Source of the DNA: Oculatellaceae cyanobacterium Prado106
GTDB taxonomy: Bacteria > Cyanobacteriota > Cyanobacteriia > Elainellales > Elainellaceae
DNA length: 41,740 bases
Direction: 5' to 3'
NCBI GenBank assembly: GCA_025454315.1
Contig: JALOOP010000004.1
Span: forward strand, 1 to 41,740
This document shows positions 16,301-40,624 of the stretch, piece by piece; within the stretch, counting starts at the first letter, position 1; each line of letters begins with the position of its first letter. Both the position numbers and the translations under genes were made by a program. Below the pieces are notes generated by a model. It was not told the DNA's origin. It ran no database searches and saw nothing but the letters and a program-made list of their open reading frames with translations.

Positions 16301-16476
16301 GGGGAGTGGGGAGTGGGGAGGTAGGGAGATGAGGAGATGAGCATAAACCTTTGCCTTTCCCCTTTCGCCTTTCCCCTTTCGCCTTTCGCCTTTCCCCTTT
16401 CCCCTTTCGCCTTTCCCCTTTCGCCTTTCGCCTTTCGCCTTTCCCCTTTCGCCTTTCGCCTTTCCCCTTTCCCCTT
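16301..16476. repeat. Facing arrays: GGGGAGT arm and long CCTTTCG/CCTTTCC heptamer array
   Basis: A short purine arm (GGGGAGTGGGGAGTGGGGAGG) lies at 16301-16337. A longer heptamer array (CCTTTCC and CCTTTCG alternating, about 18 units) fills 16347-16476 and ends 1 bp before the stop of the minus-strand ABC gene. The two arms use different motifs. The CCTTTCG/CCTTTCC alternation looks like an ordered higher-order repeat. Confidence 0.9.
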
Positions 16477-36859: not shown

Positions 36860-37183
36860 TTAGAGGTACTTTTCGATCGTGGTGGCCAGGGTGGACTTGG
36901 GCACGGCTCCAACGACCATATCCACCTTTTGACCGCCCTTGAAGACAATCAGCGTGGGGATGCTGCGGATGCCGAACTGGCTGGCGACACCGGGGTTTTC
37001 GTCGGTGTTGAGCTTGACGACCTTGAGTTGACCGTCGAACTGGGTTGCCACCTCATCCACCACCGGAGCAACCATCCGACAAGGGCCACACCAGGGTGCC
37101 CAGAAGTCAACCAGGACAGGGAGAGCGCTGTCGAGGACTTCGGTTTGAAACGAACTGTCGGTTACTTGGGCAACAGCAGACAT
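36860..37183 (-). CDS. trxA: Thioredoxin
   Basis: This small cytoplasmic dithiol-disulfide oxidoreductase is reduced by NADPH- or ferredoxin-thioredoxin reductase and passes electrons to Calvin-cycle enzymes, peroxiredoxins and others. The active site is WCGPC at residues 31-35, followed by the conserved PVVDEV segment, the buried D26 (VDFWAPWCG), the cis-proline in [10 protein letters not shown] and a C-terminal VGAVPKSTL. Length is 107 residues, an m-type thioredoxin. AAGGAG lies 9 nt before the ATG. A terminator hairpin ends the transcript. The divergent neighbour is an ArsR-type regulator 520 nt away. Confidence 0.96.
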
Positions 37184-37704: not shown

Positions 37705-38043
37705 ATGAGGCTGATTTATCACCCCGATCAGAAAGATTTGTCCTTGGCCAGTGTCCTCTACGCACTGGGTGATCCGGTGCGGCTAGAAATCGTTCAGCAG
37801 CTCTCTCGCCAGGGTGACCAGCCTTGCTGTCTCTTGTCGAAAACTGCGATCGCCAAGTCCACCCTCTCGCACCATTTCAAAGTCTTGCGGGAGTCCGGCG
37901 TGATTTATTCCCGCAAAGAAGGAACTCAACTCATTAATTCCCTTCGCAGAGAAGATTTAGAGGTGCGGTTTCCAGGCTTGTTAGATGCGGTGTTACGGGC
38001 GATCGAAGCTGAAGCCACCTGGAATTCGCCCGAAAGAGTTTAG
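37705..38043 (+). CDS. ArsR-family winged-helix transcriptional regulator
   Basis: This is a 112-residue DNA-binding protein. The N-terminus LASVLYALGDPVRLEIVQQL is the ArsR opening helix pair, AIAKSTLSHHFKVLRESGVI is the recognition helix-turn-helix (about residues 48-67), and KEGTQLINSLR forms the wing. The usual metal motif ELCVCDL is absent; two adjacent cysteines, C41-C42, precede the recognition helix, which suggests thiol/redox or metal sensing (inference). A perfect palindrome lies upstream of its own start. No target gene follows; the next gene is on the other strand. Confidence 0.88.
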   Translation: MRLIYHPDQKDLSLASVLYALGDPVRLEIVQQLSRQGDQPCCLLSKTAIAKSTLSHHFKVLRESGVIYSRKEGTQLINSLRREDLEVRFPGLLDAVLRAIEAEATWNSPERV

Positions 38044-38115: not shown

Positions 38116-39069
38116 TTAGCCCGTCTGATCCAGGGATGCCCTCTCAGAAGTGCTGCACCAACGCTCCACCGCCTCCAGCGGCAGGGTGTGATGGAAATGG
38201 GTGTAGTCTAGGTAGCGATCGCCATTCGGTGACTTGTGAATGATGTCCATAAACCGATGATCCCAGCGCACTTCCTGGGCGCTATAGACATGGCGAGAAT
38301 GAATCGTGTAGGCCACCGTTTCATCAAGTCCCGTCAACGAGATCACAATTTGAGCGCGGCTTTTGGCCAGGGATTCGGGCGTTTCTCCATACAATGGGCT
38401 GTCTTCATCGATGGGATGCATAATGCTCCAGGTGAGAATAAAACTGGGCGATCGATGGCGTGCCAGTTTCATCTCATAGAATCGCCGCATGAAGTGACCT
38501 TCCTGGGTCTTCTCATCGCGCAGCAAGGTCATCATCACCTGAGCTTCCACAATCTGGTTATGCCGCCCGTTGGCCGCTCGAAAGGTCAGGGTATCCAGGC
38601 CGTTGTAGCGTTCCACGACCGCCACTTCGCTAAAGATAATGCGCGCCGTGGGCTTGGAAAAACGAGCGAAAGCTAGTCCGGTGACGACGGCGATCGCCAA
38701 TAAACTGACAATCGACTCCACCATGACGATCGTATGGGCATAGAAAGTCTTGGGACTCATCACCCCGTAGCCGATCGAAGCTAGCGTCTGCACACTAAAG
38801 AAAAACGCATCCCAGAAATCTCCGGGCTTCGCCCCAATAATGGCATCCCCACCCAGCAGAAAGAGAATCGCAAAAATCACATTAATCAGCACATAGGCTC
38901 CCGAAACAATGCCCACGAACCCCCACCAAGGCACCGTCAACATCAAATGATAAGGATCACGCCAATAGACATACCAGGCTCCTAAATCCGCCACCGCAAA
39001 TTTCCCATCCCGATTTTCAATCCGACGAACGGAGCGAGGTAGTTTTTTGCGGTGGAGGAGGCTTTTCAT
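38116..39069 (-). CDS. Inward-rectifier-type K+ channel (KirBac family)
   Basis: The protein has 317 residues with a slide helix (WYVYWRDPYHLMLTVPWW), membrane helix 1 (FVGIVSGAYVLINVIFAILFLLGG), a pore loop with filter IGYG at 99-102 (TLASIGYGVMSP), membrane helix 2 (AHTIVMVESIVSLLAIAVVTGLAFARF) and a C-terminal immunoglobulin-like cytosolic domain (LTFRAANGRHNQIVEAQVMM onward). This is the KirBac layout. The start ATG overlaps by 4 nt (ATGA) the stop of a short upstream ORF that encodes the beginning of an ABM-domain protein, and no ribosome site is visible, so translational coupling is possible. The leader is a GGGGAGT/ACTCCCC array. Confidence 0.92.
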   Translation of the reverse strand: MKSLLHRKKLPRSVRRIENRDGKFAVADLGAWYVYWRDPYHLMLTVPWWGFVGIVSGAYVLINVIFAILFLLGGDAIIGAKPGDFWDAFFFSVQTLASIGYGVMSPKTFYAHTIVMVESIVSLLAIAVVTGLAFARFSKPTARIIFSEVAVVERYNGLDTLTFRAANGRHNQIVEAQVMMTLLRDEKTQEGHFMRRFYEMKLARHRSPSFILTWSIMHPIDEDSPLYGETPESLAKSRAQIVISLTGLDETVAYTIHSRHVYSAQEVRWDHRFMDIIHKSPNGDRYLDYTHFHHTLPLEAVERWCSTSERASLDQTG

Positions 39070-39257
39070 AGGGAGTGGGGAGTGGGGAGTGGGGAGTAGG
39101 GGCGAAAGATATTCACTCCCAAATGACCCTCAAATTGCATCGCCGCATTGCAGATTCCGGTGATAATTTCTTCAAACTCAGCTTCGTATCCCGGCTTCAC
39201 TCGCCGCAGCACACAGACCGTCACAGGAGGATCATGAGAATTGAAGGAGGGATTCAT
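39066..39257 (-). pseudogene. Truncated antibiotic-biosynthesis-monooxygenase (ABM) domain protein
   Basis: The frame starts at ATG 39257 and encodes PPVTVCVLRRVKPGYEAEFE...FEGHLGVNIFRP, the first part of an ABM ferredoxin-like domain. It then runs into the heptamer array, read as YSPLPTPHSL, and stops at TGA within the ATGA overlap with the Kir gene. Full-length cyanobacterial relatives are recalled to be much longer, so about two thirds is missing. Either a deletion or array growth removed the rest, or the short ORF now serves as a coupled leader peptide. Confidence 0.6.
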
Positions 39258-39585
39258 GGCGGGGGTGATTAAACACAGCAGGAAGAATCGAACGGTTCGT
39301 CCAAAATCATACTGCGAATTGCCCCAATGAAATCCTTGAGGAACATGAACCAAGAAAATCAGTAGAACCAGTCAGCGTCAATTGCGATCGCCCAAACGTC
39401 AGACCTTAGCCAATGAACTCCCCAACTTTCACTGACCCACTTTAGAGAAAATTAGATCCTATTGCAGTCAGGCTCCGAATCCAACCTGATTCTTAATAAC
39501 AATTCAGAAAATTGCACTAATCCATGCAATTATTTACATTGCCACTCCCCACTCCCCACTCCCCACTCCCCACTCCCCACTCCCT
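39071..39585. repeat. Facing GGGGAGT / ACTCCCC heptamer arrays
   Basis: The purine arm 39071-39103 (about four GGGGAGT units) is followed by the ABM remnant and then by a pyrimidine arm 39542-39585 of six near-perfect ACTCCCC units, ending 2 bp from the MBL gene stop. The motif is identical in both arms, about 440 bp apart. Confidence 0.9.
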
Positions 39586-39587
39586 TC

Positions 39588-40460
39588 TTAAACCGTCTCC
39601 ATCCAGCTCAAACACAACTGCATCTGCTGCTGCATGGTGGTGCGATCGCCATAAAACCGCCGCCCATGCCCCGGCAACACCCACTCAAAGGAATAGTTCG
39701 CCAACTTTGCCATGGATTGCTTCAACTCACTCCAGGAATACCAGCAGGCACCGCGAAATGCATAGAGATGGTTCAGTTCTGATGACCAGGCCAGGTGATC
39801 TCCAGTGAATAGAACCGTGTTTTTGTAAAGTAAAACCGTGTGTCCTTTGGTGTGTCCGGGAACGGGGATAATCAATAAATCCTCAGCGAGTGAGTAGGGT
39901 TCAGTACCCGTTAGTTGAATTTCGACCGATTGGGTGTCTCGGTTGATTTCGTCTTGGTGGAGAATGCGATCGCACCCAAAATGCGCCTGAAACTTGGCAT
40001 GATCGGCCACATCATCCCGGTGCGTCAAATAGAGATACCGCACACCACCCAGCGCTTCGAGTCGTTTGACCAAGGGGGGCGCAAACCGGGGTGAATCCAC
40101 CAGCACATTGCCTTCGGGGCGGACAATTAAATAGCTGGCGGCTCCAAAGGAACTTTCGGCATGATAGCCACAGTGATACACAGCGTCGGTGACGGGAATG
40201 GGAATGCTGGCTTGCACCTGGTGGATATCGATGGGTTTTTCGACGGTGCCAATGGAGGCGGTGGGGCAGGCTAGGAGGGCTTGCATGGCTCGCAGTCGCT
40301 CGGTTTCATTGGCGGGTTGGTGATGCACGGCGGACTGTTCATCGACTTCAAAGAAGACTTCGGGAGCCATCCAGCGGCAGGTGTCGCAGTCAATGCAGGT
40401 GGAATCGACGTAGAACTCGCCGCTGACATTTTCGGGACGACGCTGAGCGAGGTGAGCCAT
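39588..40460 (-). CDS. Ferredoxin-fused metallo-beta-lactamase-fold hydrolase
   Basis: This 290-residue cytoplasmic protein joins two modules. Residues 1-70 form a single-cluster 4Fe-4S ferredoxin (C22, C25 and C28 in CIDCDTC, and C65-P66). From about 85 on it is an MBL hydrolase: THRDDVADH is the metal-binding HxxxxxDH variant, PGHTKGH gives another ligand, TGDHLAW carries the bridging aspartate, and VLPGHGRRF the last histidine. I start at ATG 40460 because GGAGG sits 5 nt upstream; the longer frame adds four residues. The fused ferredoxin suggests a redox-linked activity. The substrate is unknown. The gene ends at an ACTCCCC array. Confidence 0.88.
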   Translation of the reverse strand: MAHLAQRRPENVSGEFYVDSTCIDCDTCRWMAPEVFFEVDEQSAVHHQPANETERLRAMQALLACPTASIGTVEKPIDIHQVQASIPIPVTDAVYHCGYHAESSFGAASYLIVRPEGNVLVDSPRFAPPLVKRLEALGGVRYLYLTHRDDVADHAKFQAHFGCDRILHQDEINRDTQSVEIQLTGTEPYSLAEDLLIIPVPGHTKGHTVLLYKNTVLFTGDHLAWSSELNHLYAFRGACWYSWSELKQSMAKLANYSFEWVLPGHGRRFYGDRTTMQQQMQLCLSWMETV

Positions 40461-40471
40461 AGAATCCTCCA

Positions 40472-40624
40472 ATTTGATGCCATTGCCTCCCTCATTGTAG
40501 AACGAGAATGTTTGGGGACTGCAAATCGGATGAAATGGCCTCGATCGCGCAATTGGAGGGCGATCGCCAACATCGGATGCAGATCGCCCAAAGAACCCAT
40601 TGTTGTTAGAGAATCCGACTCATG
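40472..40624 (-). pseudogene. N-terminal remnant of a GT1 (UGT/MGT-like) glycosyltransferase
   Basis: On the minus strand the frame just upstream of the MBL gene reads LTTMGSLGDLHPMLAIALQL followed by RDRGHFIRFAVPKHS. This is the unmistakable first beta-alpha unit of family-1 glycosyltransferases (TxGSLGDLHPxxAIA). It has no proper start, and the frame dissolves after about 50 codons at the MBL start region, so only a fragment remains. Confidence 0.7.

Follow-up and report, generated by a model that had tools for sequence, protein, structure and literature searches.

We analyzed a stretch of 41,740 nucleotides from the Oculatellaceae cyanobacterium Prado106 (positions 1 to 41,740 of contig JALOOP010000004.1, assembly GCA_025454315.1; hereafter the window), in which the start codon of a Kir-type potassium channel gene abuts a short array of G-rich heptamers, on the other side of which lies the truncated frame of a gene for an ABM-domain protein. 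We consider it probable that this locus is a Kir gene with its boundary array lying beside an ABM pseudogene, and that the Kir gene is started independently of a Shine-Dalgarno (SD) motif through an unstructured leader. The array at 39071 to 39101 would be the 5′ boundary array of Kir, one among many arrays found at gene edges whose G-rich strand faces outward, and the ABM fragment would be a relic in the spacer that separates this array from the one bounding the next gene, left by a deletion or rearrangement that presumably had one breakpoint at the array. In the Kir mRNA, the array would bring an unstructured C-rich leader up to the AUG, where initiation most likely proceeds without an SD motif, aided by the local absence of RNA structure; translation of the ABM remnant and its coupling to Kir may happen and would be unnecessary for the channel gene. 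An earlier note, made from the letters of this DNA, had suggested that an array seems to have destroyed one gene and to have built a leader for another, Kir. Given the placement rule described below, it is more likely that the remnant of a dead gene lies beside a gene-edge repeat of the ordinary sort.

Sampled heptamer arrays tend to flank genes with their G-rich strand directed outward

Tandem heptamer repeats in cyanobacterial genomes are known as short tandemly repeated repetitive (STRR) sequences. We surveyed such arrays, defined as G- or C-rich repeats of period 7 spanning at least 25 bases, in the window and in every tenth contig from C10 to C600 (60 contigs, up to 20 kb of each, 626 kb), amounting to ~9% of the genome. 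Open reading frames (ORFs) were called crudely, as the longest ORF from the first ATG or GTG, with both sides of each array treated alike. The 667 kb sampled contained 104 arrays, GGGGAAA, GGGGAGT, and GGGAGTA being the commonest units. Where neighboring arrays lay within 600 bp of each other, a G-rich array was followed by a C-rich array in 19 pairs and the reverse order did not occur (three further pairs were G-G and three C-C); with the window left out, the counts were 15, 0, 3, and 3, respectively (p = 6e-5 for 15 of 15). Outside ORFs lay 88 arrays, 74 of which had genes on both sides, and for 60 of these 74 the nearer gene was the one from which the G-rich strand points away (the rule side). 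An ORF edge was found within 50 bp on the rule side in 49 of 85 cases versus 3 of 77 on the other side. This held for stops (34/44 versus 1/40) and, as a weaker effect, for starts (15/41 versus 2/37), and 11 arrays lie at most 15 nt from a start codon. We conclude that the arrays sampled from this genome tend to sit at gene edges, their G-rich strand directed away from the gene.

Both arrays at the Kir locus fit this rule. The first (39071 to 39101; GGGAGTG on the plus strand, 4.4 copies), which is C-rich in the Kir mRNA and touches the Kir start codon, fits for Kir (38116 to 39069, minus strand), and the second (39542 to 39584; 6.1 copies, CCACTCC on the plus strand and G-rich on the minus strand) fits for the neighboring ferredoxin/metallo-β-lactamase fusion gene (39588 to 40472, minus strand), from whose stop codon it is separated by 3 nt. 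Between these oppositely oriented arrays lies a 440-bp spacer (39102 to 39541) occupied by the ABM fragment and the 284 bp that precede its ATG. With the ABM frame counted as the gene instead, the Kir array would lie on the rarely used strand.

Relatives have far fewer arrays of the GGGGAGT type than this genome: a three-unit 21-mer gave 659 overlapping hits here, and among 34 other genomes it gave 1–14 hits in six and none in 28. Here, G- and C-rich arrays also bracket spacers in a fixed order. Elsewhere in the window (16348 to 16476), a long period-7 array with the unit CCTTTCG (18.6 copies) lies one base from a stop codon.

The ABM frame is probably a pseudogene relic broken at the array

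The ABM ORF (39257 to 39066, minus strand) has 63 codons followed by TGA (MNPSFN...EGHLGVNIFRP-YSPLPTPHSL*), of which 53 encode the N terminus of an ABM protein and 10 are contributed by the array. Homology ends after the residues FRP, beyond which the frame runs through the (CCCCACT)n array to a TGA that overlaps the Kir ATG (39069) as ATGA. The match to the Pfam ABM profile (PF03992; E = 0.0013, 19.2 bits) covers only profile positions 2–44 of 78 and stays below the curated cut-off of 23.1 bits, which a full-length relative of 196 amino acids passes with 23.5 bits; we therefore describe the frame as a fragment of such a gene and not as a complete domain. The translation, the Pfam span, and the ATGA all agree with the earlier note, which had the ABM domain cut at the array, a C terminus supplied by the array, and a stop overlapping the Kir start. 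All three frames of the array are open, so read-through of it from the ABM frame is expected. The ATG at 39257 is not the sole candidate start, since the open ABM frame extends upstream to a TTG at 39353.

We searched 60 genomes (this one and 59 others) for ABM genes and found matches in 25. Of the 51 matches in other genomes, 47 lay in open frames of 188–317 amino acids and four in frames of 70–134, the 11 relatives aligned over their whole length having 190–199 amino acids. The relatives' matches to the fragment stop at its residues 53–61, and the 3′ two-thirds of the ABM gene are gone. Over 43 aligned codons, the fragment differed from its relatives by means of 0.29, 0.22, and 0.64 at codon positions 1, 2, and 3, the corresponding values among the relatives being 0.24, 0.12, and 0.59. 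Its mean identity of 0.61 was the lowest of the 12 ABM sequences (the next was 0.64), and it has changed two of 15 invariant residues. These values suggest relaxed constraint, and we regard the fragment as a probable pseudogene relic. As for the earlier claim that the array destroyed the gene, the break does lie at the array edge, and the array may have caused it.

The C-terminal part of the ABM relative in genome G025 was used to search this genome for the missing piece, and no such piece was found beside another array. Only two matches came back, a full-length paralog (contig C236, 47% to the query) and a weak one of 21 residues (contig C417, E 0.04), the latter in a 3-kb stretch that holds no array. 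This short match (L074 1501–1563, genome G000), weak as it is, sits among other seemingly shortened genes. In relatives, ABM usually has an SMP-30-like gene as its neighbor. Of 20 ABM-type loci, 11 carry this gene immediately upstream of ABM and two (L077 and L087) downstream, 13 in all; the present genome offered only a 42% match to it, on contig C125.

Within the spacer, the 284 bp preceding the ABM ATG gave no match better than E 0.74 in a blastx comparison with ORFs from the ABM and Kir loci that had been fetched (the window's own ORF aside), and a second copy of the 440-bp spacer was not found in the genome at E 0.01. We also considered bracketed spacers as gene graveyards in general and rejected the idea: for nine ORFs taken from five of the 18 remaining spacers, Pfam hits were no better than E 0.086, the ABM frame reaching E 0.006 in the same run. 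A relic in a spacer is therefore not shown to be a general feature.

How the relic came to lie next to Kir

ABM was absent from all 20 Kir neighborhoods fetched and Kir from all 20 ABM-type neighborhoods (18 from relatives and two from this genome), both at a tblastn threshold of E 1e-6 at which 19 of the 20 ABM-type neighborhoods gave an ABM hit, several of the contigs being short. Because neither gene occurs in the other's neighborhoods, the pairing is seen in this genome only. The comparison with related strains, which the earlier note had proposed as a search for an intact ABM gene at this locus, gave Kir neighborhoods devoid of ABM, and no relative with the locus as it stood before the break was among them.

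One possible origin, to which we give some but limited credence, is that two dispersed arrays recombined, joining the end of an ABM gene to the Kir locus and leaving a reciprocal product elsewhere. This overlaps with our preferred reading, since array recombination is one way in which the relic could have arisen. The breakpoint at the array agrees with it, as does the finding that relatives possessing both genes carry them on separate contigs or, in the case of G050, at a distance of about 98 kb. Further, the kinase that precedes Kir in genomes G018 and G027 has its best match here on contig C599 (62%), where the start of the contig truncates it, and the only Kir gene of this genome does not lie on that contig. 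The reciprocal product, however, was not found: there is no heptamer array between the C599 histidine kinase and the next ORF or around the C417 match to the ABM C terminus. Moreover, increased stability at such arrays is reported for Xanthomonas (PMC4692102).

It is quite improbable, in our judgment, that the junction is an assembly chimera in which the ABM fragment was joined to Kir via a repeat that occurs hundreds of times. The assembly comprises 609 contigs, the 659 overlapping 21-mer hits offer many places for a false join, and the ends of the sampled contigs have six arrays within 100 bp, against an expectation of 1.7. The array at issue, however, is just 31 bp long, and sequencing reads are usually longer than that. 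Random joins would also blur the strict orientation rule, and the failure to find the missing ABM 3′ part next to another array speaks against a misjoin as well.

The Kir start lacks an SD-like motif and has little predicted structure

Besides Kir, the sample contained 10 genes whose array ends 0–7 nt before the start codon, nine of them with Pfam domains. An SD-like motif was found at none of these 11 array-touching starts, compared with 30% of 301 control starts; the earlier observation that Kir has no ribosome site is borne out. The median predicted folding energy at the start was −0.4 kcal/mol for the 11 genes versus −6.0 kcal/mol for the controls. We also inspected 17 of 34 related Kir loci (L039, L041–L054, L067, and L068, the last two nearly identical) and found an SD-like motif in three, which is close to the background of 17% obtained at random positions in the window.

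The alternative put forward in the earlier note is that the ABM remnant is a translated leader on which Kir depends, Kir being translated mainly by termination-reinitiation at the ATGA. We think this unlikely. The overlap and the lack of an SD-like motif at Kir would both accord with coupling, as would a remnant frame that is open from either the TTG or the ATG, and in a study of Haloferax and Escherichia coli, 13 of the 14 pairs tested with overlaps of the ATGA type proved strictly coupled (PMC6728339). However, Kir is one of six genes among the 11 array-touching ones that begin with ATGA and so have a stop in the +1 frame, and the overlap itself is therefore not beyond chance; given that Kir begins with ATGA, an upstream frame would meet that stop by chance one time in three. 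A frame with its own start codon that ends at such an ATGA was present in only two of the 11, namely Kir and a radical-SAM gene on L155, whose shared arrangement counts in favor of a leader. In five of the 11 (L129, L151, L162, L176, and L178), no upstream frame with a start codon reaches the start at all. Scans for transcription signals, which were weak, gave no σ70-like match in 39000 to 39700 (0.7 expected) and a terminator-like match upstream of the ABM ATG (39304 to 39288, minus strand; two found, 0.8 expected), which counts, if weakly, against the leader. With 14 of 17 Kir relatives devoid of an SD-like motif and five of the 10 other array-start genes devoid of any upstream frame with a start codon that reaches the start, dependence of Kir on the short ORF appears doubtful. 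The radical-SAM gene (L155 713–1447), which likewise starts at an array and is preceded by a frame that ends at ATGA, is a second natural candidate for coupling.

Since no frame of the array contains a stop, a copy-number switch is conceivable. By computation, one additional heptamer would give an in-frame ABM-array-Kir fusion and one fewer an out-of-frame overlap, the current state being the stop-start overlap, so that copy number might set three translational states and vary the dose or N terminus of the channel. We judge this very improbable; were it true, other array-touching genes could share the same logic.

Several findings weigh against a boundary array, a pseudogene, and an SD-independent start. 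The 59 other genomes searched for ABM included none of the same genus, and the relaxed constraint on the fragment is suggested by 43 codons, a small base. The fragment has kept 13 of 15 invariant residues and a frame open over 53 codons, which would fit a young relic or a used leader. As to the arrays, 16 of the 104 lie inside ORFs of at least 110 amino acids, and at five array-touching genes (L134, L154, L155, L158, and L167) an upstream frame with a start codon does read across the start. The closest Kir relative, in G018, has an SD-like GGAG, and C-rich composition alone gives low RNA structure at array-touching starts. The upstream frames at these five genes and the GGAG of G018 weigh little beside the placement rule, and a boundary array beside a relic, with SD-independent initiation of Kir, is the reading that we favor.

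The Kir side of the locus is old

The Kir product scores over the cut-off against IRK_C (PF17655, 105.5 bits) and Ion_trans_2 (PF07885, 31.2 bits) and just under it against PF01007 (22.4 bits, cut-off 22.7), and its 317 residues include the selectivity filter GYG (as SIGYG), which together place it in the Kir family. Beside it lie an ArsR-type regulator gene (37705 to 38043, plus strand) and a thioredoxin gene (36860 to 37183, minus strand). G018 and G027, the relatives closest to this genome in Kir, both keep this Kir-ArsR-thioredoxin block; a nitroreductase gene also lies beside Kir in G027, and the G018 contig begins nearby. Judged by this conserved gene order, the Kir side of the locus is old. 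Seven of the Kir relatives compared likewise start with MK near the aligned position, which makes it plausible that Kir has kept its original start codon at the array. The G027 Kir gene (L097 around 7182, contig C53) is seemingly frameshifted near residue 41 in that assembly. On the other flank of the spacer, the product of the fusion gene matches Fer4_13 and, weakly, lactamase B profiles.

Comparison with known systems

G-quadruplex-forming heptamer arrays have been described with the units GGGGA(C/T)T in Nostoc PCC 7120 and GGGAATC in Xanthomonas, together with a strand rule by which they occupy the non-coding strand just upstream of ORFs and the coding strand just downstream of stops (Rehm 2015, PMC4692102). 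The arrays studied here resemble them in being tandem G-rich heptamers dispersed over the genome and in their strand placement, which both arrays at the Kir locus follow. They differ in that their main units are neither GGGGA(C/T)T nor GGGNATC, making them the same kind by placement and type though outside those particular families by sequence; in the far greater frequency of the GGGGAGT type than in relatives; and in the 11 sampled arrays that come within 15 nt of a start codon. The present genome would then be another cyanobacterium that obeys the published rule, here right up to the start codon.

With the termination-reinitiation pairs of PMC6728339, the locus shares an ATGA stop-start overlap between co-directed frames; unlike in those pairs, the upstream frame here appears to be a broken gene with an array-encoded end. 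The locus illustrates that a missing ribosome site and an ATGA overlap near a heptamer array are weak evidence for coupling in such genomes. SD-independent initiation via a local lack of structure has been reported (Scharff 2011, PMC3121790), and non-SD starts had significantly weaker structure in seven of nine cyanobacteria (PMC5397173). Kir resembles the starts of PMC3121790 in having no SD-like motif and almost no predicted structure, and it differs from them in that the unstructured leader is a tandem array; such a leader could take the place of a ribosome-binding site.
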